NCBI GenBank assembly: GCA_025937235.1
Contig: JAICRU010000026.1
Coordinates: 1 to 36,386 of the forward strand
Direction: 5' to 3'
Length of the DNA stretch: 36,386 nucleotides
Source of the DNA: Acidimicrobiia bacterium
GTDB taxonomy: Bacteria; Actinomycetota; Acidimicrobiia; Spongiisociales; ZC4RG35
Position 1 is the stretch's first letter. The number at the start of each line of letters is the position of its first letter. The notes beneath the pieces were generated by a model. That model did no database searches. It saw only the letters and a list, made by a program, of their open reading frames with translations, and was not told the origin of the DNA. Shown here piece by piece: positions 2,713-22,442 of the stretch. The translations under genes were made by a program, and so were the position numbers.

Positions 2713-2718
2713 GTCAGA
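2708..2718. repeat. Dyad containing both convergent stop codons
   Basis: TCTGA-G-TCAGA: the CoA-binding protein's stop (TGA 2710-2712) and the opposing stop of the BtpA-family gene (2716-2714) sit in the two 5-bp arms. Too short and without a T tract to be called a terminator alone. Confidence 0.4.
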
Positions 2719-3505
2719 CGAGACCGTGGTGCCGGGCCGCCTCGATGAAGGCGGCAACCCGCCCCGGGTCGAGCCGGCCGGTGGCCACGCCGTCGACTTT
2801 GAGCGAAGAACCGACGATGACGTTATCTGCGATCTCGGCCAGAGAGCCCAGGTTGTCGACACCTGCGCCCGATCCGATGACCAGACGTGTCCCCTTGGGG
2901 AGCACGGAACGGACCGCGGCCACCTCGGTGGCATCGGGCCCCACGCCGGTGCCGGGCCCGGAGACGATCACGGCATCTGCTCGCCCTCTCCCAACGGTGT
3001 CCTCCACCGCCTGCTCGAGCACCAGACCGGGCGGAGGGGTGGCGTGTTTCACCATCACATCCGCCCAGATCTCGACCTCCGGCGCCAGCCATGCCCGACG
3101 CCGGGCCAGTTGGTCGGCATGCCCCGTGATCGGCCCCTGATCGGTGTACATCACACCGGTCAACACATTGACTCGTATGAACGCCGCCCCGGTCACCGCG
3201 GCAATGCCCAGCGCCGACAAGGCATCGTTTCGCAGCACGTTGACTCCCACCGGGAGGCGGGTCTCCCGGACGACCCCGTCGACGGCGATACCCATGGCGG
3301 CGATGGTCTCGGGGTCGGATGAGTCGGGGTGGAAGGGGACATCGCCGAAGTTCTCCACGAGGAGGGAGGGGAAACCGGCCTTCGCCAGTGTGGTGGCCTC
3401 GGTGATCGATGTCTCGAGTACTTCGGCCATCGAGCCCCCATACCCGGGGGAGCCGGGCAGCGGGAGCAGATGGATCATCCCCACCAAACGGGGGACAGGG
3501 CTCAC
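2714..3505 (-). CDS. BtpA/SgcQ family TIM-barrel protein
   Basis: A 263-residue protein of the BtpA family, named after a cyanobacterial photosystem I biogenesis factor but widespread in non-phototrophs, where the function is unsettled; relatives are predicted TIM-barrel phosphosugar-binding proteins. The family signature is seen in GMIHLLPLPGSP at 9-20, LLVENFGDVPF, GVNVLRND, FIRVNVLTGVMYTDQG, IVSGPGTG and NVIVGSSLKVDG. The start is taken as GTG at 3505 because the family begins just before GMIHLLPLPG and this GTG overlaps the stop of the upstream gene as GTGA, a coupling arrangement. A longer reading to 3661 would run through the neighbour's coding sequence. A sugar or nucleoside catabolic role is only possible, not shown. 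Confidence 0.85.
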   Translation of the reverse strand: MSPVPRLVGMIHLLPLPGSPGYGGSMAEVLETSITEATTLAKAGFPSLLVENFGDVPFHPDSSDPETIAAMGIAVDGVVRETRLPVGVNVLRNDALSALGIAAVTGAAFIRVNVLTGVMYTDQGPITGHADQLARRRAWLAPEVEIWADVMVKHATPPPGLVLEQAVEDTVGRGRADAVIVSGPGTGVGPDATEVAAVRSVLPKGTRLVIGSGAGVDNLGSLAEIADNVIVGSSLKVDGVATGRLDPGRVAAFIEAARHHGLV

Positions 3506-4233
3506 AGATAGGCCCTGGCCACCTGCATCGCCTTCTCGGCGTAGTCTCCCGAGACCTTGAGGTTGGTCTTGGCCGGACTGATCCTGCGCACCGCGACCCG
3601 TGCCCACTCCGAAGCCGAGCCCTTGATCAACTGGTCGGTGTCCTCGGGGCCGTACACCCATTTGGCGTAACCGGGGCCGATGAGCTCGACGCGGACCGGC
3701 TCGTAGTCCTCACCGGCGTGCTTGAAGGCGTGAGGCAGCGTTTTCCAGCCCAGCCAGCAGACGTGGCGGATGCGAGGGGTGTCCTCGACTTCGATCCCCA
3801 GTGTCGCATAGATGTCGAGACCGTGCATCCAGGTCTCCATGAGTCTGAAGGTGGCGAAGGTGCGGGCGCTCATGTCGCCCTCGATCCACTCGATCCGGTC
3901 CTCCGCCTCCATGTGAGACAAGGGCTCGACTACCTTCGCCCGCCCGCCGCGCCACCACTCGATGACGTCTTGAGGGCGCATCTCCCGGCCCTTCTTGATC
4001 GCCTCGGCGCGAAGCGGGCCGAGCTTGGGGGCCGTCTGCCATCGTTTGAGCTTGTCACCCCCGGCGATCGTGTCGGCGGCGAGCTCCTCGAAATCGGCGA
4101 GGTGGGCAATAGTGTCGCGAACCGTCCACGGTTTGGCCGGCGTGACCATGTCCCAGATCTTGATGGGAATCCTCTGCAGCGACTGATCGAGGAACTGTTG
4201 TTCGGCTACCAGATCCGAAAGGATGTCTCGCAC
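3502..4233 (-). CDS. TIGR03084-type DinB/MDMPI metal-binding protein
   Basis: A 243-residue protein of the actinobacterial TIGR03084 family, within the DinB/YfiT/mycothiol-dependent maleylpyruvate isomerase fold. The expected metal triad is visible: H44 in TIAHLADFE, then E133 and H137 in ETWMHGLDIYATLG. PWTVRDTIAHL is the usual N-terminal helix. Members are thought to be thiol-dependent transferases or isomerases using mycothiol, but the substrate is unknown. Start is GTG at 4233, with TACCAT 6 nt upstream, which suggests a leaderless message. The stop overlaps the GTG of the BtpA-family gene (GTGA), so the two proteins are translationally coupled. Confidence 0.82.
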   Translation of the reverse strand: MRDILSDLVAEQQFLDQSLQRIPIKIWDMVTPAKPWTVRDTIAHLADFEELAADTIAGGDKLKRWQTAPKLGPLRAEAIKKGREMRPQDVIEWWRGGRAKVVEPLSHMEAEDRIEWIEGDMSARTFATFRLMETWMHGLDIYATLGIEVEDTPRIRHVCWLGWKTLPHAFKHAGEDYEPVRVELIGPGYAKWVYGPEDTDQLIKGSASEWARVAVRRISPAKTNLKVSGDYAEKAMQVARAYL

Positions 4234-4239
4234 CCGCCA

Positions 4240-4245
4240 ATGGTA
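4240..4245 (-). promoter_or_regulatory. -10 element for a leaderless start
   Basis: Reading leftward, TACCAT (4245-4240) is followed by 6 nt and then the GTG at 4233, so transcription would begin at or next to the start codon. No ribosome site is present. No clear -35 was found. Confidence 0.45.
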
Positions 4246-4284
4246 GCCCCCGAGCAGGGTTTATACCCAGGCCGAAACAGCCTG

Positions 4285-5409
4285 TCACCAGGGTCTTTCG
4301 GCGTGCTCCTCGGTCATCGGCTCAGGCAGATGGGAAGGCTTGGGTGCAGCTACCAGGTCGTTGAGGGTGTCGATCATCGCCCGGAGGCGGCCGAAATGAC
4401 GACGGTCGAACACGAAGGCGATCCGATGCAGGTGCAGCGCGTCGCTGTCCTCGGTCTCAGCCGCGGTCGCGGCCACCTTCTCGATCCGACCGTCCACGAC
4501 GATGTCTGAGTACTCATCGTTGAGACGCTCGACGGTGGCATCGGAGGGATCCTCGTTGAGGCGGAGAACGAGCCTGCCGCCCGAGTAGCGCTGGGAGTGA
4601 TAGTTGCCATAGAAATGCCAGATGTGCTCCGCCGCCGCCTGGTGGTCGGTCGTGTGCAGGAAGAGGTTCAGGTCGGACTCGCTGATCAGCCCTCGGGCCA
4701 GCTGCTGATCTGTCATGAACTCGATCATGGGGCCCCAGTATTCGGTTCCTTCGGCCTCGAGCAGGACGATCGGATGTAGGTCGCTCTTCCCGGTCTGGAC
4801 CAAGGTGAGAAGCTCGAAGGTCTCGTCGAGAGTGCCCCAGCCACCAGGGAGGAGGACGAAGGCGTGGGCCTCCTTCACGAAGCCCAGCTTCCTCGTGAAG
4901 AAGTACTTGAAGTTGACGATGCGGTCGGGCGAGATGTGGAGGTTGGCCTCGTCCTCGAAGGGGAGCCTGATGTTCACGCCGTAGGCGTGGTCGATCCCGG
5001 CGCCCCTGCTCCCTGCCTCCATGATCCCCGGGCCGGCCCCGGTGATGACCCCCCAACCGCTTTCTGCCATGGTCTCGGCGAAATCCGCCGTAATGAGATA
5101 GTTGGGGTCGTCCTCCCCGATCCGGGCAGACCCGTAGATCGTCACCTTTGGCTCCTCGTGCCGGGCAAAGACGAGGTTGGAGTACCTCATCTCCTTCAAC
5201 GAGGTGTTGATCAGCTTGAGATCGGCCTTCGAGGCGCCGTCTCTCCCCAACTTGAGGGAAGTGACGATCATCTCGGCGATCAGATCGGCATGCTCCGATG
5301 TGGTGGCGCCGGCGACGAGCTCACCAACCATTGCATCGAGCTCTGGGTTGCCCAGGTCGTACGGCATCGTCGCGACGCTAACGGGTTCCCGCAGGGAGAA
5401 CGGTCCCAC
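4285..5409 (-). CDS. LOG-family (TIGR00730, lysine-decarboxylase-like) protein
   Basis: Long-form member of the TIGR00730 / LOG family, 374 residues from GTG 5409. The Rossmann core shows VTIYGSARIGEDDPNY, WGVITGAGPGIMEAGSRGA and the hallmark PGGWGTLDETFEL motif. Short LOG proteins release cytokinin-type bases from their ribotides by phosphoribohydrolase action. The long bacterial form with an extra C-terminal region (about residues 260-374 here) is related to nucleotide 5'-monophosphate nucleosidases, so nucleotide salvage is the likeliest role. An ATG at 5367 (MPYDLGNPELD) would give 360 residues and neither start has a good ribosome site, so the exact N-terminus is open. It lies downstream of the CobS-like gene after a 96-nt gap containing competing hairpins. 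Confidence 0.85.
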   Translation of the reverse strand: MGPFSLREPVSVATMPYDLGNPELDAMVGELVAGATTSEHADLIAEMIVTSLKLGRDGASKADLKLINTSLKEMRYSNLVFARHEEPKVTIYGSARIGEDDPNYLITADFAETMAESGWGVITGAGPGIMEAGSRGAGIDHAYGVNIRLPFEDEANLHISPDRIVNFKYFFTRKLGFVKEAHAFVLLPGGWGTLDETFELLTLVQTGKSDLHPIVLLEAEGTEYWGPMIEFMTDQQLARGLISESDLNLFLHTTDHQAAAEHIWHFYGNYHSQRYSGGRLVLRLNEDPSDATVERLNDEYSDIVVDGRIEKVAATAAETEDSDALHLHRIAFVFDRRHFGRLRAMIDTLNDLVAAPKPSHLPEPMTEEHAERPW

Positions 5410-5505: not shown

Positions 5506-6495
5506 TCAAAACGGCCGGACGGTGGGTCCCTTTCTCACCACGGCGTTCCAGACCGTCTCGTAATGGTCCCGGTCGAAGGGATCGACATGGGGGAGCACGT
5601 ACTCCTCCCACGCCAGCCGGAGCGGATCCGGCCGGTCCGCATAGACCAAGAGCCCGGTGGGGATCCGGTCGAGGACCGAACGTAGCGACAGCGGCGTCTC
5701 TACCCGGACCCCCGAGTCTTGCGCCTCGAATGAAGCATTGACCTCCACCGCGAGCCGGGCGATCGCCACCACGTACTCCGGGTGGAGATGGGGATAGCGA
5801 CGTGACAGCATCGTCTCGACCTGGTCACCGCCCGGGAAGCTCTTCTCCCAGATCACCCAGCGGTCGGCGAACGCCTTGTTCAGGGTTTGGGTGCCTGCGT
5901 AGTCGCGGAGGTCCGTCGGGTTCATCGTCCCGAAGATCCGTACGTCATCACGCAATCGGACGGTCTCCCCCGTGGGGAGGTCGAGAGACGAATAGCGGTC
6001 GAGGAGCCCGTGCAGCGCGAAGAGGGTCTCCGCACCCGCCGCATTCAGCTCGGAGAGGTTGAGCAGCGCCGGGCCACGCAAGGCCCGCGTGATGTCGCCG
6101 TCCTCCCAGCGGCTCTCCGTGCCTCCCTTCCCGTCCCCGTGGAGCCGGGTGGAGCCGATCAGTGTCACATCCCGGACCTCGCCGGTGAGGGGGATGCGGA
6201 AGTAGGGCAATCCCATAGCGGCGCCGAACTGTTCGATGTCGTGGTCCTTCCCCGTCCCCATGTGGCCGCGCACGGCGACATGGAGGGGCACGAGGCCCTC
6301 CGCCCCCGACATCCGGGCCTGCTCCAGCTGGGCAAACCTGTAGAGCATCCCGAGATCGACGTAGTGGGGGTCGGGCTCGGGGATTTTCCGCGATCTCAGC
6401 TCGAACTCCGCGGTGTCCTCCGGCACCTCGAATTTCTCGAGGACGATCGGGACGCCTTCTCCCGAAGGATCTTCGAATGTCACTTTCTCAGGCAA
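5506..6495 (-). CDS. CobS-like AAA+ ATPase with degenerate Walker motifs
   Basis: MoxR/CobS-type AAA+ protein, 329 residues from TTG 6495. That start is chosen because AGGAGAG lies 5 nt upstream and it overlaps the VWA gene stop by 8 nt; GTG at 6483 is the alternative. The P-loop GHMGTGKDHDIEQF (77-90) resembles the CobS form GTGKSTHIEQ but has Asp at the Mg-coordinating Ser/Thr. The Walker B equivalent LLNLSELNAA has Ser where DE is expected and keeps only the Glu (S148-E149). Sensor Asn (GTMNP, N192) and the GTQTLNKAFADRW arginine region are present. Such ATPases remodel targets with a VWA partner, here the gene immediately upstream. Whether this one hydrolyses ATP is doubtful. No cobaltochelatase CobN is in the window. 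Confidence 0.85.
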   Translation of the reverse strand: MPEKVTFEDPSGEGVPIVLEKFEVPEDTAEFELRSRKIPEPDPHYVDLGMLYRFAQLEQARMSGAEGLVPLHVAVRGHMGTGKDHDIEQFGAAMGLPYFRIPLTGEVRDVTLIGSTRLHGDGKGGTESRWEDGDITRALRGPALLNLSELNAAGAETLFALHGLLDRYSSLDLPTGETVRLRDDVRIFGTMNPTDLRDYAGTQTLNKAFADRWVIWEKSFPGGDQVETMLSRRYPHLHPEYVVAIARLAVEVNASFEAQDSGVRVETPLSLRSVLDRIPTGLLVYADRPDPLRLAWEEYVLPHVDPFDRDHYETVWNAVVRKGPTVRPF

Positions 6496-8569
6496 CTGAA
6501 CTCTCCTGGTTGATGTCGATCTCCGACGCCCTGAGCCACCATGTGTCCATTCCCCAGAGAGCGAGGCTCCGGCGCAAGGCATTCCTGGTCCCGTCGATCA
6601 TGGCCTGGGCGAGGTCCTCGGGTCGCGAGACGACCTCATGGCGTCGGTAGGCCTCGTCCACCGTGTGGTCTCCGATCCCGATTCCTATGACCGTCGTCCC
6701 CCCGGCCTCGACCGCGGTCACGGATCTGGCCAGGGCCTCGAGTGAGCCCCGCGTCATCCCGTCCGCCAGCACCATCAGCACCCTGACCTGGGCACCCAGA
6801 CGGGCCATCCGCTCGGCGGCATGGATGATGTTGAACTCGTCGACGTTGGCGGCCTTCTCGAAGAGGGAGACAGGTGGCGCCGACCTGGGGTCGCGGCGGG
6901 CGAGAGTGGAGGCCATCCTCGGCTCGGCGGCGGTGTAGAACACCCCGGCCAGAGTCGCCTCTGCATCGCGCCACCGCCGCTCGAACGGCTTCACCACGTA
7001 GTGATTCACGGTGGAGGTGAGCCGATCGGCGGCGGCTCCCTGAGTCCGTTTCAGGCCGGCCGTGGCCGCCGAGCGCTTTCTCCGGTACGAGTCCTCGGTG
7101 TCGTCGACGCGCGCGGCAAACCCCCGGTTGAAGAGGGCTACTTCGAAGTCGACCTGTAGCTCGTCGCAGAGTCGGGCCATGGTCCACGCCCCGAGCATGG
7201 CGGCGGACATCGCCCAGGAGCTCCCGCCCCGGCCCGGGCTGAGCATCGAAGCCGAGGCGTCGACGAGCAGGGACACCGCATAGGTCCGACGCGTCCGGGC
7301 GGCCCTCCTCTCGTAGAGACGCTGATAGAGGCCGGCGCCGATGAAGAGGGCAGAGTGGGGTGAGACATCGCCCTGGTCGAAACCGGATCGCAGCCCTCTC
7401 CGCTGATTGGCGACGAAGAGCGGGAACAACTCTCCCGACACCCGGCGCTGGGCGAGCTCCCAACGTCTGGCCTTCTCGGTGAGCGCGGCCAGGCCCTCGC
7501 CCGAGAAACGGGAGAACGACGTTGGGATGGGGCCAACCACCAGCTTCCCGCCCTGACCGGTGGGGAGGAAGACATCGGGTGCCTGGCTGACCCGAAGCAG
7601 CTGGTCGGTCGATTCCTCGTCGGCGACATCGGACGCTCCCTTGCGGTCGGAAGCACCGGAACGTGACTCGGCGGATCTCCTGGTGTCCTGGTAGGACTGG
7701 GCGTCGGTGAGGATGGGCGAAGTCATCCGAACTGCGTCGACGCCCTCCTGTGCCTTCTCGGCGTCGGCCTGCGCCCCATGCTGGCGCTTGGCGTGGGTCG
7801 TATTCGCCTGGACCTCGCTGATGAGGCCGTGGGATCGAGCAATGGCCTCGAGCTCCAGGGCCAGCTGGGCGACGTCCCAGGGGTCATCGGCCTCCGCAGC
7901 CAGCTCGCAGTGATGGGTTGCATCGTCGAGAGCGGCCGTGGCCCTCGCCTCGAATCGTCGTTCCAGCACGTCACGATCCACATACCCGCCCACGAGGAGG
8001 AAGCAGCCCAGGACGAACTGGCTAAGGGCCCCGGAACGGGCAATCGCCTGGCTGAGGGAGGACATGTAGAGGTCGGACAGCACGGATCTGGCTCCCGGGT
8101 AGACCGAGAGGCATTGGAACTCCTGGCGCGCGTCCTCGAGGGAGAAGAAGAGCACCTCTGCCACGGGCTTGTTGGTCCGGTCCAAGGCGGTGAGCAGGTC
8201 GATTTGGGCGCCGGGCGTCACCTCTCCCTCGACCGGCCACCCTGCGGGCAGCTCTCGGGTCTCGTCGAGGTCGGTCGACACCAGATGCATCACCTCGTGG
8301 AGGGCCGATGCGATTGCCACTTCGTCCGGGGTCACCGGAGCGTTGCGGTGATAGGCAGCCTGGAAGATGCGGGGGTCACAGACGACTTCGTCGGCCGAGG
8401 CGGATGGCTCGGAACCGAGTCGCACCCTGAGGTTTGGGTTCTTGGAGAGGGTGCGGGCGAAGCGGGTCACTGCGGGCGCGACCCGCTGATAACGACCCAC
8501 CACGGCCTCTATCGCCTGGTCTTCGGGCCTGATCAGGTCGGTGAGAACGGTTTGGTCGCGTCCGCGCAT
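6488..8569 (-). CDS. VWA protein with N-terminal HExxH metallopeptidase-like domain
   Basis: A 693-residue soluble protein. Residues 60-160 contain HEVMHLVSTD (HExxH at 91-95) and the downstream EDARQE (145-150), the layout of a small gluzincin-type zinc domain as found in CobT-like and VWA-associated predicted peptidases. A polar linker (about 255-330) follows. The C-terminal VWA domain has an intact MIDAS, DASASM with D437, S439, S441, and later VLMVLADGMTRGS. The layout resembles CobT, and with the CobS-like ATPase it forms the classic AAA+/VWA pair; the two genes overlap by 8 nt. MoxR/VWA pairs act as chaperone-like remodellers that insert metals or assemble enzymes. The substrate here is unknown. 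A TTGACA (minus, 8596-8591) upstream lacks a matching -10. Confidence 0.85.
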   Translation of the reverse strand: MRGRDQTVLTDLIRPEDQAIEAVVGRYQRVAPAVTRFARTLSKNPNLRVRLGSEPSASADEVVCDPRIFQAAYHRNAPVTPDEVAIASALHEVMHLVSTDLDETRELPAGWPVEGEVTPGAQIDLLTALDRTNKPVAEVLFFSLEDARQEFQCLSVYPGARSVLSDLYMSSLSQAIARSGALSQFVLGCFLLVGGYVDRDVLERRFEARATAALDDATHHCELAAEADDPWDVAQLALELEAIARSHGLISEVQANTTHAKRQHGAQADAEKAQEGVDAVRMTSPILTDAQSYQDTRRSAESRSGASDRKGASDVADEESTDQLLRVSQAPDVFLPTGQGGKLVVGPIPTSFSRFSGEGLAALTEKARRWELAQRRVSGELFPLFVANQRRGLRSGFDQGDVSPHSALFIGAGLYQRLYERRAARTRRTYAVSLLVDASASMLSPGRGGSSWAMSAAMLGAWTMARLCDELQVDFEVALFNRGFAARVDDTEDSYRRKRSAATAGLKRTQGAAADRLTSTVNHYVVKPFERRWRDAEATLAGVFYTAAEPRMASTLARRDPRSAPPVSLFEKAANVDEFNIIHAAERMARLGAQVRVLMVLADGMTRGSLEALARSVTAVEAGGTTVIGIGIGDHTVDEAYRRHEVVSRPEDLAQAMIDGTRNALRRSLALWGMDTWWLRASEIDINQESSVA

Positions 8570-8640
8570 AGCCCGTCATTGTCTCACAGGTGTCAAACAG
8601 GGCTTTGCGACTTACGTTCTGTGTTTCGCGCCAGGGCCCA

Positions 8641-8646
8641 TACACT
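8641..8646 (+). promoter_or_regulatory. -10 element for a leaderless start
   Basis: TACACT is followed by 6 nt and the GTG at 8653. No ribosome site is present. A weak -35 candidate TTCTGT lies 18 nt upstream (8617-8622). Confidence 0.45.
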
Positions 8647-8652
8647 CCCGAC

Positions 8653-9906
8653 GTGCACTATGACCTGACCACCCTCCCCAACGGGCTCCGTGTCATAAGC
8701 GAGCCCATGCCCTCGCTTCGCTCTGTGGCGCTCGGCTGCTGGATCGACACCGGGACCCGCGACGAGCTACCCAACGAGCACGGCGCATCCCATTTCCTGG
8801 AGCATCTGTTGTTCAAGGGCTCTGAGAAGCTGTCGGCCCGCCAGGTGTCGGAGATCTTCGATTCGATCGGAGCCGAGTCGAACGCCTTCACCTCGAAGGA
8901 GAGCACCTGTTACTGGGCACGTCTCCTCGATCAGGACCTCGGCACGGGTTTCGACGTCTTGTCCGAGATGCTGCAGCGCCCGGCGTTCCGGCAGAACGAG
9001 ATCGACGCGGAACGTCAGGTGGTCATCGAGGAGATCAACATGAACGACGACGATCCAGACGACGTCGCCTTCGAGAACTTCACGACGGCGGTGTTCGTCG
9101 ACCACCCGCTGGAAGCCCCGGTCCTCGGGACTCGCGAATCGATCAGGGGGATGTCGCGAGACGACATCCTGGGCTACTGGAAGAGGCGATACGGCGCCGG
9201 TTCGATGGTGGTGGCGGCAGCTGGATCGGTGGACCACCAGGCTCTGGTCGACATGGTGGCCGAGCGGTTTGGAGACTGGTCCGGGGACAACGTGGAGCAC
9301 GAATTCGGCGAGGCTGCACCGTGGCCCGTGGTGAGGATCACCCGGCGGGAGACCGAACAGGCCCACATCGTCATCGGGGGCAAGGGCCTGACCCGGAGCG
9401 ACGAGAAGCGTTGGGCGTTCGAGGTGCTCAATCATGTCCTGGGCAGTGGGATGTCGTCCCGGCTGTTCCGGGAGATCCGTGAGGAGCGGGGCCTGGCCTA
9501 TGCCGTCTATGGGTTCAAGATGGCCTATGCCGATGCCGGGGCGTGGGGGGTCTACGTCGGGACCACTCCGAGTCAGACGGAAACGGCCATGGATGTGATC
9601 CGGGAAGAGCTCTCCAAGGTCGTCTCCGACGGGATCACCGAAGAGGAGCTCGACCGGGCCAAGGGATCGATGCGTGGCGGGCTCGCCCTGGCCATGGAGG
9701 ATCCGAACAGCCGGATGGTGAGATTGGGACGCGACGAGCTGTCCGGGATGCCACACCTGTCGGTGGACGAGCGGTTGGCCAAGCTTGAGGCGGTGACCCT
9801 CGATGAGGTGAAGTCCATCGCCGCGGAGCTGTTCACCGGACAGCGGATGATTGGTGCGGTCGGGCCCTACGACGAGGGCGACCTGGATGCCTTCCTGGCC
9901 GTTTAA
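8653..9906 (+). CDS. M16 family zinc peptidase (PepR/mitochondrial processing-like)
   Basis: Single-unit M16B-type zinc protease of 417 residues. The inverted zinc motif HFLEH lies at 47-51, with the third ligand in the ERQVVIEEI segment (E126/E127). The C-terminal half carries the RLFREIREERGLAY signature. No signal peptide, so cytoplasmic. Short bacterial M16 proteins usually work as dimers on peptides or partly unfolded proteins. The GTG at 8653 is preferred because the conserved start YDLTTLPNGLRV follows it at once and TACACT sits 6 nt before it; a longer reading to 8590 adds unconserved sequence. The gene's usual neighbours (pnp, dapB, dut) are not in this window, although dapA and RNase J lie 13 kb away. 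Confidence 0.9.
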   Translation: MHYDLTTLPNGLRVISEPMPSLRSVALGCWIDTGTRDELPNEHGASHFLEHLLFKGSEKLSARQVSEIFDSIGAESNAFTSKESTCYWARLLDQDLGTGFDVLSEMLQRPAFRQNEIDAERQVVIEEINMNDDDPDDVAFENFTTAVFVDHPLEAPVLGTRESIRGMSRDDILGYWKRRYGAGSMVVAAAGSVDHQALVDMVAERFGDWSGDNVEHEFGEAAPWPVVRITRRETEQAHIVIGGKGLTRSDEKRWAFEVLNHVLGSGMSSRLFREIREERGLAYAVYGFKMAYADAGAWGVYVGTTPSQTETAMDVIREELSKVVSDGITEEELDRAKGSMRGGLALAMEDPNSRMVRLGRDELSGMPHLSVDERLAKLEAVTLDEVKSIAAELFTGQRMIGAVGPYDEGDLDAFLAV

Positions 9907-10716: not shown

Positions 10717-11190
10717 ATGGACCGAACGGACCCTATGGAGCTGAAAGACGTCCTCCTGATCCTCCACATCGCAGGCGCCGGGACATGGCTCGGGGCCAAC
10801 GTCGTGCAGGCCATGGCCCCTTCGCTCGCCGCCAGACAAGGGCCAGCCGCACAAGCAGGTTGGTATCGCGTGGCGGCGAAACTCTCGTCGCGCCTGTACA
10901 TGCCGGCGGCGATCCTCCTGCTTGCCACCGGGATCTGGATGGTTCTCCTCGTCGACGCCTACGGGTTCGGGACGCTGTTCGTGACCATCGGCTTCGCCAT
11001 GGTCCTGATCGGGGCCGTACTCGGGATCCTGGTCTTCGATCGCGGGTCTGAGCGAGCGGCGACTGCCATCGATGGGGGCGACCAGGCCGCGATCCGATCG
11101 GCCACAGGCAGACTTGCCGCCTTCGGCGTGCTCGACACAGCGCTGCTCCTGTTGACGATCACGGCCATGGTCCTCCGTCTCGGGGCGTGA
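10717..11190 (+). CDS. Integral membrane protein, DUF2269/CopD-like
   Basis: A 157-residue protein with four predicted membrane helices, 157 codons from ATG 10717 or 151 from ATG 10735 (MELKDVLL), which I find slightly more natural because the first helix follows directly. The first helix contains LHIAGAGTWLGANVVQ, a pattern typical of DUF2269 and CopD-like heme or copper membrane proteins, with one conserved His. Further helices are MPAAILLLATGIWMVLL, LFVTIGFAMVLIGAVLGIL and FGVLDTALLLLTITAMVL. It overlaps the DUF4015 lipoprotein gene by 4 nt (GTGA) and is probably co-expressed with it. The biochemical role is unknown. Confidence 0.7.
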   Translation: MDRTDPMELKDVLLILHIAGAGTWLGANVVQAMAPSLAARQGPAAQAGWYRVAAKLSSRLYMPAAILLLATGIWMVLLVDAYGFGTLFVTIGFAMVLIGAVLGILVFDRGSERAATAIDGGDQAAIRSATGRLAAFGVLDTALLLLTITAMVLRLGA

Positions 11191-12482
11191 ACCGGAGACG
11201 TGGCCCGGTGGGGGGACGAATCGCTCTGGTCGCAACCTTGGCCCTCGTCGTGGCTGCCTGCAATGGCGACGGGGAAAATGCAGGAACGGGCCCAGAGCAG
11301 GCTGCTCAAGGGATTGCCGGCACCACGATTCCCTTGTTCCAGCTCCTGGGCAAGGTGGTCGACGAGTCGGGTGCCCCAGTGCCCAGGGCAGAGGTGATGG
11401 TAGGGGAGCATGTCGCGCTGACCGCGGCCGACGGCTGGTTCGACCTGATGACCTCCCCCGGTCAGCTGACGGTCGACAAGCCTGCATGGCTGGCCACGGA
11501 AGGGACCTGGGACGGCTCGCCCGCCTTCACCGAGTGGCGCATACAGCCTCGCAAGATCCGGGCCCTCCGGGTCGGCGCGGAGGCAGCAGGCAATGATGAG
11601 CGATTCGCAGCAATTCTCGCGCTCGCCGACGAGACGGCCATCAATGCCCTCGTCTTCGACACGAAGCAGGAGGGCGGCAAGGTCTTCTACGACACGGGTG
11701 TGACAGAAGCCCACGACGCCGGCGCCGTGGTCGATGTCTATGACCCGGCCGAGCGTCTCGCCCAGGCCCGAGAGCACGGTCTATACAACATCACACGGAT
11801 CGTGACCTTCGAAGACTCTTATCGGGCCGCATTTCGCCCCGAGGAGGCATACGACGGGAAGTGGATCAACCCGACCAAGGTCGCATCATGGGAGTACCCG
11901 ATAGCCCTCGCCGAGGAGGCATGCCGGCTCGGCTTCGACGAGGTTCAGTTCGACTATGTCCGGTTTCCGTCCGAGGAGGCGGCCCAGATCAGTGGCCAAC
12001 TGGAGATGACCGAGGAACAGCGCACGTCCACGATCGAGGGATTCCTGGACGCGGCACAGGCCCGGGTCCATGCGGCGGGCTGCGCGATGAGCGCTGATGT
12101 GTTCGCCATCGTGGTGTCCGCTGACAACGACCAGGGAATCGGGCAGCGCCCGGAGGTGCTGACCCAGCACCTCGACGCGTTCAGCCCCATGGTCTATCCC
12201 AGCCATTACTCGCCGGGCTGGCTCGGGTTCGATGACCCCAATGAGCACCCGTACGACGTGACCGAGGACGCCATCCTCGATGCCAAGGAGCGGCTGGAGC
12301 CCGGTGTCGTGCTCCGTCCCTGGCTACAGGCCTTCTGGTGGACCAACGAGCAGATCAAGAGGTCGATCCAGGCCGCCGAGGACCAGGGCGTCGGTTGGAT
12401 CCTGTGGAACGCGGTCAGCAATTTCGACCGGGCCGCGCTGCCCACCGACGAGGAGCTGGCGGCGGCCGTCACTCCCGAGTGA
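11187..12482 (+). CDS. DUF4015 putative glycoside hydrolase lipoprotein
   Basis: A 431-residue exported lipoprotein. A signal peptide ends in a lipobox, LALVVAAC with C25, followed by a short linker and a carboxypeptidase-regulatory-like beta domain (GKVVDESGAPVPRAEV, about 54-90). The rest is the DUF4015 TIM-barrel-type domain, predicted glycoside hydrolase: NALVFDTKQEGG, YNITRIVTFED, GFDEVQFDYVRFPS and FSPMVYPSHY, ending with GVGWILWNA. The acidic residues in the VFD and FDYVRFPS strands are the likely catalytic positions. The start is GTG at 11187, overlapping the membrane protein gene's stop. The substrate is probably an exopolymer or cell-wall glycan outside the membrane; this is inferred from the family. 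Confidence 0.83.
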   Translation: MNRRRGPVGGRIALVATLALVVAACNGDGENAGTGPEQAAQGIAGTTIPLFQLLGKVVDESGAPVPRAEVMVGEHVALTAADGWFDLMTSPGQLTVDKPAWLATEGTWDGSPAFTEWRIQPRKIRALRVGAEAAGNDERFAAILALADETAINALVFDTKQEGGKVFYDTGVTEAHDAGAVVDVYDPAERLAQAREHGLYNITRIVTFEDSYRAAFRPEEAYDGKWINPTKVASWEYPIALAEEACRLGFDEVQFDYVRFPSEEAAQISGQLEMTEEQRTSTIEGFLDAAQARVHAAGCAMSADVFAIVVSADNDQGIGQRPEVLTQHLDAFSPMVYPSHYSPGWLGFDDPNEHPYDVTEDAILDAKERLEPGVVLRPWLQAFWWTNEQIKRSIQAAEDQGVGWILWNAVSNFDRAALPTDEELAAAVTPE

Positions 12483-20951: not shown

Positions 20952-20957
20952 AGTCTA
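20952..20957 (-). promoter_or_regulatory. -10 element for a leaderless start, overlapping a stop codon
   Basis: Reading leftward, TAGACT (20957-20952) is followed by 6 nt and the ATG at 20945. Its TAG is also the stop codon of the kinase-LLM fusion gene. Confidence 0.4.
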
Positions 20958-22442
20958 AGGGCGGGCCATGGCTCCGATCACCAGGCCGAAGGTCTCGATG
21001 CTCCCCTCGAGATGGGCGTCGGGCAGCACGACCATCGAATGATTGGCTCCCGCCTCGTGATAGGCGCCGAAGTGCTCCAGCTGGTCTTCGATCACACCTG
21101 CGTTGTATCTGGCCATGAAGGACTCGACGGTGGTGCTCCTGCCCCGAAGAAGCTCGACCCTTTCCCTGAGTGCGCTCCGGTCGGGGGCGACCATCACGTC
21201 GACCAGATGGGTGACCTCGATCTCGTCGGGGTCACGATCGATCTCGGAGCAGTGGCGACGGAGCACCTCGACCTTGCGCCGTATCACATCGGGTTTCCCG
21301 AAGAGATTGCAGGCGTCGGCGTAGCGCGCCACCAGACGCAGTGTCCGCCTCTCGCCGGAGCCCCCGATCAAGATCGGTATGTGCTCCTGGATGGGCCGGG
21401 GGTAACAGGTCAGGTGGGAAGCGGAGAAGGTCACGCCGGTGAATGGAGGTGAGCCCTTGCCCCAGAGCAGCGGCAGCATCCTCAGCGTGTCTTCGAGCGC
21501 GTCGTAGCGCTGTCCCATCGGCTGGAAAGGGATCCCATAGCCTTCTTGCTCTGCCTGGTCCCAGCCGATCCCGAGACCGAGGAGGGCCCGACCTCCGCTG
21601 AGGACATCGAGGGTGGCGACCATCTTGCCGAGGACGACGGGGTGACGGTGCCCGATGGAGCTCACCAGCGCCCCCAACCCGATGGACCCGGTCACCCCGG
21701 CGAGGAAGGACAACGACAGGTATGCCTCGGGCATGTCTTCCCAGGGCCGGCCCACTCGGGGGATCTGGCGGAAATGGTCCATTAGCCAGAGGTCGTGGAA
21801 CCCTGCCGCCTCCGCTCTACGAGCGATCGAGGCGAGGTTCTTGGCCAGTCCGGCCGGGTCGCCCCAGTCGAACCGGTTCACCACCAGGCCGAACCGGTGT
21901 CTCGCGGGTGATGCAGGGGACTCGGGGGACGCCCGATTCCCGGTGGCGACCACTGATGGTGTGACCATGACTATGGGTTGCTCCGTGATCACCTGGTCGA
22001 ATCCATCGTCTTCGATCTCGCCGTGAACGACTCGATAACGGCTCAACTGCTTGTCCAGCACCGTCCGTGGGATGGGTCGGGCTCGCGCCCAGTTGCGGGC
22101 ACGGATCTGAGCAGTCGGCGTCTCGAACACCACTGCATAGGCCGGGATCCGGGCTTCGTGGGCGATGCCCACCCACCGACGGCGGTTGTCCCTGTCCATC
22201 CCGAGGGTGTCGATCACCGTGGTCAGCCCACGACTCATTCGCTCGGAGACCACCTGCTCGAGGATGGAGAAGGCGGCGGTCCCCGCTTGCCGATCATCCT
22301 CCCCGGCTCCAACCATCCCCCTGATCCGATCCGAGGAGACGATTTCGCTCTCGTGGAACATCGTGGCCGCCCAGCTGCTCTTGCCTGATCCCGCCGGGCC
22401 GACCAGGACCACCAGAGATGGCATGGGAAGACGTAGCTCCAT
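20955..22442 (-). CDS. Fusion of P-loop kinase domain and F420-type LLM oxidoreductase
   Basis: A single open frame of 495 residues joining two domains. Residues 8-165 form a polynucleotide-kinase-like P-loop domain: Walker A GPAGSGKS (15-22), SSDRIRG with D38, and VIDTLGMDRDNRRRW (76-90). A Pro/Ala/Ser linker spans about 166-180. Residues 181-495 are a luciferase-like F420-dependent oxidoreductase: RFGLVVNRFDWGD, AAGFHDLWLMDHF, GGRALLGLGIGWDQAEQEGYG and IPILIGGSGERRTLRL, close to the TIGR03560/Rv1855c-like group. The ATG 22442 starts just before the kinase. No frameshift or internal stop is seen. What the kinase phosphorylates and why it is joined to a redox domain is unknown. Confidence 0.85.
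   Translation of the reverse strand: MELRLPMPSLVVLVGPAGSGKSSWAATMFHESEIVSSDRIRGMVGAGEDDRQAGTAAFSILEQVVSERMSRGLTTVIDTLGMDRDNRRRWVGIAHEARIPAYAVVFETPTAQIRARNWARARPIPRTVLDKQLSRYRVVHGEIEDDGFDQVITEQPIVMVTPSVVATGNRASPESPASPARHRFGLVVNRFDWGDPAGLAKNLASIARRAEAAGFHDLWLMDHFRQIPRVGRPWEDMPEAYLSLSFLAGVTGSIGLGALVSSIGHRHPVVLGKMVATLDVLSGGRALLGLGIGWDQAEQEGYGIPFQPMGQRYDALEDTLRMLPLLWGKGSPPFTGVTFSASHLTCYPRPIQEHIPILIGGSGERRTLRLVARYADACNLFGKPDVIRRKVEVLRRHCSEIDRDPDEIEVTHLVDVMVAPDRSALRERVELLRGRSTTVESFMARYNAGVIEDQLEHFGAYHEAGANHSMVVLPDAHLEGSIETFGLVIGAMARP

Follow-up and report, generated by a model that had tools for sequence, protein, structure and literature searches.

A MoxR-type AAA+ protein with Walker A Asp and Walker B Ser and its VWA partner: a candidate for a rebuilt Mg2+ site

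In P-loop ATPases the hydroxyl of the Walker A Ser/Thr directly coordinates Mg2+, and the Walker B Asp reaches the ion mostly through water and hydrogen-bonds the Walker A hydroxyl. Both residues are regarded as all but obligatory for Mg-ATP chemistry, and proteins are classed as active or dead by their presence. A 36,386-nucleotide stretch of DNA from an Acidimicrobiia bacterium (the window) carries a gene for an AAA+ protein that has neither residue, which raises the question of whether its product is a decayed ATPase, an ATP-holding switch, or an enzyme that manages its metal ion in another way. A family in which both ligands are replaced in a complementary manner, with the rest of the site kept in two lineages, would provide a direct natural test of the rule.

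An AAA+ gene with non-canonical Walker motifs and its VWA partner

The first-pass annotation, made from the DNA letters alone, described a CobS/CobT-like pair whose ATPase has the P-loop GHMGTGKD and the Walker B motif LNLSEL and has thus lost the Ser/Thr and the Asp. We find exactly these motifs in the open reading frame 6582..5506 on the minus strand. The ATG of this longer frame sits within the VWA gene, and judging from the sequence a TTG at 6495 is the likelier start: AGGAG is located 7 nt 5' of it, it agrees with the starts of homologues, and the AAA+ gene then overlaps the VWA stop by a few bases. Counted from this TTG the non-canonical residues are D84 and S148, as they had been numbered. 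The features of the pair are as follows.

5506..6495, minus strand: AAA+ protein (MoxR clade, AAA_5), 329 aa, assigned by a PF07728 match, with structure-model matches to NorQ/CbbQ
6244..6267, minus strand: Walker A GHMGTGKD, with Asp84 at 6246-6244 (DNA pattern match 6239-6267)
6046..6069, minus strand: Walker B ALLNLSEL, with Ser148 at 6054-6052 and Glu149 at 6051-6049
6488..8569, minus strand: partner protein, 693 aa, with an N-terminal HExxH region and a C-terminal VWA domain with MIDAS

PF07728 (AAA_5) matches the AAA+ protein with 46 bits against a curated cut-off of 22. Its AlphaFold2 model (mean pLDDT 74.6) superimposes on NorQ with Z 10.7 and on CbbQ with Z 10.3 at an rmsd of 13-14 Å, parts of the model being of low confidence, with pLDDT below 50 at residues 78-81, 105-128 and 196-217 in the P-loop/pore region; a NorQ/CbbQ fold with its helix-2 insert is a tentative assignment. 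Outside the two substituted positions the protein has a sensor-1 Asn (N192 in FGTMNP), an Arg at the arginine-finger position (R212 in NKAFADRW) and a sensor-2-like Arg (R272 in SLRS). All three are invariant in a 30-row alignment, which bears out the earlier statement that the sensor Asn and the arginine region are kept. The canonical Walker A Ser/Thr and Walker B Asp, which are usual for the MoxR clade and not strictly defining of it, are absent from every swapped member, where GKD and LSE or MSE are found instead.

The partner gene lies immediately upstream of the AAA+ gene on the same strand in 111/111 loci, and its product has no Pfam match. The VWA domain (about aa 329-666) resembles the NorD VWA domain (Z 19.4 over 228 residues at 2.9 Å) and the Rea1 MIDAS domain (Z 18.2); the comparison with PDB structures is dominated by this domain, and the matches concern it rather than the HExxH region. 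The MIDAS had been described as intact, and D437-x-S-x-S (S439, S441), T520 and D603 are indeed conserved. What the first-pass annotation overlooked is the HExxH motif of the partner, together with the operon partners discussed below. Within this sequence (HEVMH, aa 91-95) H91, E92 and H95 are invariant, and they are accompanied by a conserved acidic pair at 145-146; the motif and the pair are also kept in genomes of ~1 Mb. By resemblance, the N-terminal region is a putative zincin-type metallopeptidase-like domain.

Conservation and distribution of Asp84 and Ser148

Homologues came from 80 genome-contig loci, from 41 related genomes and, for the ~1 Mb genomes, from 8 regions. The P-loop GH[MR]GTGKD and the Walker B motif [NS][LM]SEL had no exceptions in the first 111 loci, and the ~1 Mb genomes have the same two motifs. 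K83, D84, S148 and E149 are all fixed in 97 distinct homologous genes, and the swapped proteins form a single clade with support of 100/99, so that the question raised by the first-pass annotation, namely whether D84 and S148 are conserved as a clade or give way to canonical residues in close homologues, is answered in favor of conservation. Across these 97 genes D84 is encoded by GAC or GAT and S148 by TCC, TCG, TCA, TCT or AGC. Silent changes are common and the serine comes from two separate codon boxes, which indicates that it is the amino acids that are under selection. Together with the constant presence of the partner gene, these data show a fixed, selected variant and not a decayed gene. 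Sequencing error, pseudogene formation or strain-specific decay can be set aside, as the substitutions are common to 97 distinct genes.

Relatives outside the clade look different. All 11 that were inspected, including phage, plasmid and nearest same-phylum proteins, have GK[ST], and the residue preceding the catalytic Glu is acidic (D or E) in all but one, where it is Asn. In six AAA_5 paralogues from the window's own genome, with sequences read from the loci, GK[ST] likewise goes with an acidic residue before the catalytic Glu. The nearest same-phylum relatives combine a canonical Walker A with an acidic residue at Walker B. A protein with the D84-type or the S148-type substitution alone was not found in this small sample of remote relatives. 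We also note some variation at Walker B among them. The nearest relatives (L129, L130 and L131), all from a single same-phylum family, have LLLEE[ML]N, in which Glu replaces the Mg-binding Asp (LLLEELN, family f62); the partner protein at L129 has HExxH and LEDARVE. In a Vibrio plasmid relative (L153, 2809-3765) Walker B reads LILNEID, with Asp changed to Asn, and the P-loop is canonical.

The AAA+ protein is present in 40/41 related genomes. In a profile search the VWA partner was detected in 61/62 genomes of two lineages of uncultured actinobacteria, comprising 53/54 genomes of the window's order and 8/8 of a second lineage with ~1 Mb genomes, and in 0/87 other sampled genomes of the class. 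The sole genome of the order with no match is a 410-contig assembly, and the partner gene therefore probably falls in an assembly gap. A DNA pattern for GHMGTGKDHD was matched in two groups, the window's order and one further family with ~1 Mb genomes; the other sampled families of the class gave no match. A broad sample of the phylum returned members of the order plus three distant canonical relatives, all of one family (E about 1e-29), and no canonical close homologues beyond these three. Viral contigs gave 33 pattern matches, of which none was a relative. The simplest history compatible with these sequences would be a single origin of the swap before the two lineages split. The pair has been retained even in genomes as small as ~1 Mb, which tend to shed dispensable genes.

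Possible states of the nucleotide pocket and possible clients

The first-pass annotation had suggested either a weakly or non-hydrolysing switch or an altered Mg site. We favor the latter in an active form, because the other catalytic residues are invariant in two lineages and the changes are reciprocal. With a probability of roughly 0.5, the protein would be a lineage-specific, active MoxR-type motor that acts with a metallopeptidase-like/VWA co-chaperone and whose Mg2+ site has been rebuilt by the reciprocal swap; the intact Lys83, Glu149, Asn192 and Arg212 make this the most likely state of the pocket. In the mechanism we propose, the Walker A hydroxyl is replaced by Asp84 and the Walker B carboxylate by Ser148, so that the metal would still have a carboxylate and a hydroxyl next to it in the pocket. 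ATP would be bound together with Mg2+ or a different divalent ion, and Glu149, Asn192 and Arg212 would hydrolyse it as in other AAA+ proteins. The AAA+ protein would presumably assemble into a hexamer, the power stroke of which may twist or pull the VWA partner, on the NorQ-NorD model, and the partner may in turn dock a client through its MIDAS. More tentatively, the naturally fixed exchange of the two Mg2+ ligands may keep the enzyme active, which would amount to an inverted Mg2+ site. Such a site appears to be new for AAA+ proteins: in the literature covered, largely open-licence papers with subscription journals mostly outside it, we found neither a description of one nor any mention of AAA+ proteins with a GKD Walker A or of this AAA/VWA pair.

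The next state in our ranking, which we regard as rather unlikely, is a protein that binds ATP and hardly hydrolyses it. Asp84 beside Lys83 would disfavor the phosphates or Mg2+, and the ring would be a scaffold that carries the VWA protein and is gated by nucleotide. That neither canonical Mg2+ ligand is left is what one would expect in this case, and a NorQ variant with its Walker B Glu mutated can still form a complex with NorD and retain ATP (PMC13036017). Against this, no variation is seen at Glu149, Asn192, Arg212 or in the sensor-2 region, and the two substitutions complement each other in type. Non-hydrolysing AAA modules usually lose the catalytic Glu, sensor and finger residues. A hydrolysis-dead switch could, all the same, likewise retain them.

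The genes around the pair bear on what the motor might act upon. Downstream neighbors were counted in loci with >4 kb of sequence downstream of the pair (n=67).

4285..5409, minus strand: LOG-type gene (PF03641/TIGR00730), downstream in 51/67 loci
3502..4233, minus strand: DinB/MDMPI-fold protein close to TIGR03084, downstream in 63/67 loci including ~1 Mb genomes
2714..3661, minus strand: BtpA/SgcQ-family TIM-barrel protein, downstream in 51/67 loci, for which translation probably begins around aa 59 of this frame
8590..9906, plus strand: M16-family peptidase, a divergent upstream neighbor in 57/71 loci, taken here as a neighbor of the system

The core shared by both lineages consists of the VWA, AAA, DinB-fold and BtpA genes. 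The BtpA family takes its name from photosystem I biogenesis, and within the class BtpA genes are nearly limited to carriers of the AAA/VWA pair. A plus-strand frame at 3412-4509 showed apparent conservation but is antisense to the DinB-fold gene, and PADLOC gave no match that would point to anti-phage defence. Elsewhere in the window, 20955-22442 (minus strand) encodes a small P-loop kinase-like domain (AAA_33) fused to a luciferase-like monooxygenase domain, and 11187-12482 (plus strand) encodes a DUF4015 putative glycosyl hydrolase that is near the pair in just 9/88 loci.

The DinB-fold protein is the best-linked candidate for a client of the pair, given its position after the pair in nearly all loci. 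An explanation compatible with an active motor is that the pair acts as a chaperone that inserts metal into this TIGR03084-like protein, whose presumed His/Glu/His metal triad is kept in most members and for which iron insertion by NorQD is a precedent (PMC13036017). Yet in the eight loci from ~1 Mb genomes (L132-L139) the first presumed metal His (the H44 position) has been lost and only the E-x-x-x-H pair is kept, and one or two presumed ligands are missing in several other loci, the AAA+ protein being unchanged in all of these. Similar DinB-fold proteins are also common in class members that do not have the pair. These ligand losses and pairless occurrences weaken the DinB-fold protein as a general target, and we consider metal insertion into it improbable and a poor general explanation of the pair.

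Least likely among the states of the pocket, and doubtful in our view, is that it no longer serves Mg-ATP at all and takes another divalent metal, another nucleotide or nothing, with the fold kept for assembly; a carboxylate at the end of a P-loop is unusual, and a LOG-type nucleotide enzyme and a BtpA/SgcQ TIM barrel are among the neighbors, but the remaining P-loop and the gamma-phosphate-sensing residues are intact. Taken together, a motor with a rebuilt Mg2+ site remains the reading that we prefer.

Comparison with known systems

Of the CobS/CobT-like label given in the first-pass annotation, a MoxR/CobS-like AAA+ protein paired with a MIDAS-containing VWA protein stands, and CobS itself does not. 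There are low-score matches to TIGR01650 and to CobS in the PDB, but the CobS equivalog model TIGR01650 scores 47.3 bits against a cut-off of 558.55, and CobS has GYHGTGKS and FDE where the protein described here has GHMGTGKD and NLSEL. The annotated CobT that we inspected has no HExxH, unlike the partner here. The earlier statement that no chelatase large subunit is nearby holds for the entire 3.08 Mb assembly (96.7% complete) as well, in which PF02514 (CobN) has no match. Membership in CobS/CobT is thus rejected on two counts, a score about tenfold short of the cut-off and the lack of CobN.

The window ATPase also matches PHROG 249, the CobS-like phage ATPases (1e-23). In the phage partners that we inspected, as here, an HExxH motif lies close to the N-terminus and a MIDAS in the C-terminal part, whereas the inspected phage ATPases are canonical at both Walker motifs and the partners resemble ours in the VWA region only. 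A metallopeptidase domain at the N-terminus is also on record for MoxR-vWA pairs of jumbo phages (PMC7824862). Midasin/Rea1 provides the top PDB sequence matches of the ATPase, and its MIDAS domain resembles the partner VWA as noted above, but the protein here is a single-module bacterial one. With TorsinA, an AAA+ protein (GxxxxGKN) that is functional although Asn takes the place of the Walker A Ser/Thr (PMC5628414), our protein shares a non-canonical residue at that position that is fixed in the family. TorsinA differs in having Asn rather than Asp and a canonical Walker B DE, and it belongs to another AAA+ branch.

NorQ and NorD resemble the pair in the VWA domain and, tentatively, in the AAA+ fold by structure match, in having adjacent genes, in the MIDAS and in the arginine finger position. 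NorQD, which inserts iron into cNOR, is reported to be an ATP-driven twisting machine (PMC13036017), and its VWA partner is thought to engage the client through the MIDAS (PMC13036017, PMC9976466). The system described here differs from NorQ/NorD in its swapped Mg2+ ligands, in the HExxH of the partner N-terminus, in the gene order VWA-AAA and in its other operon partners.
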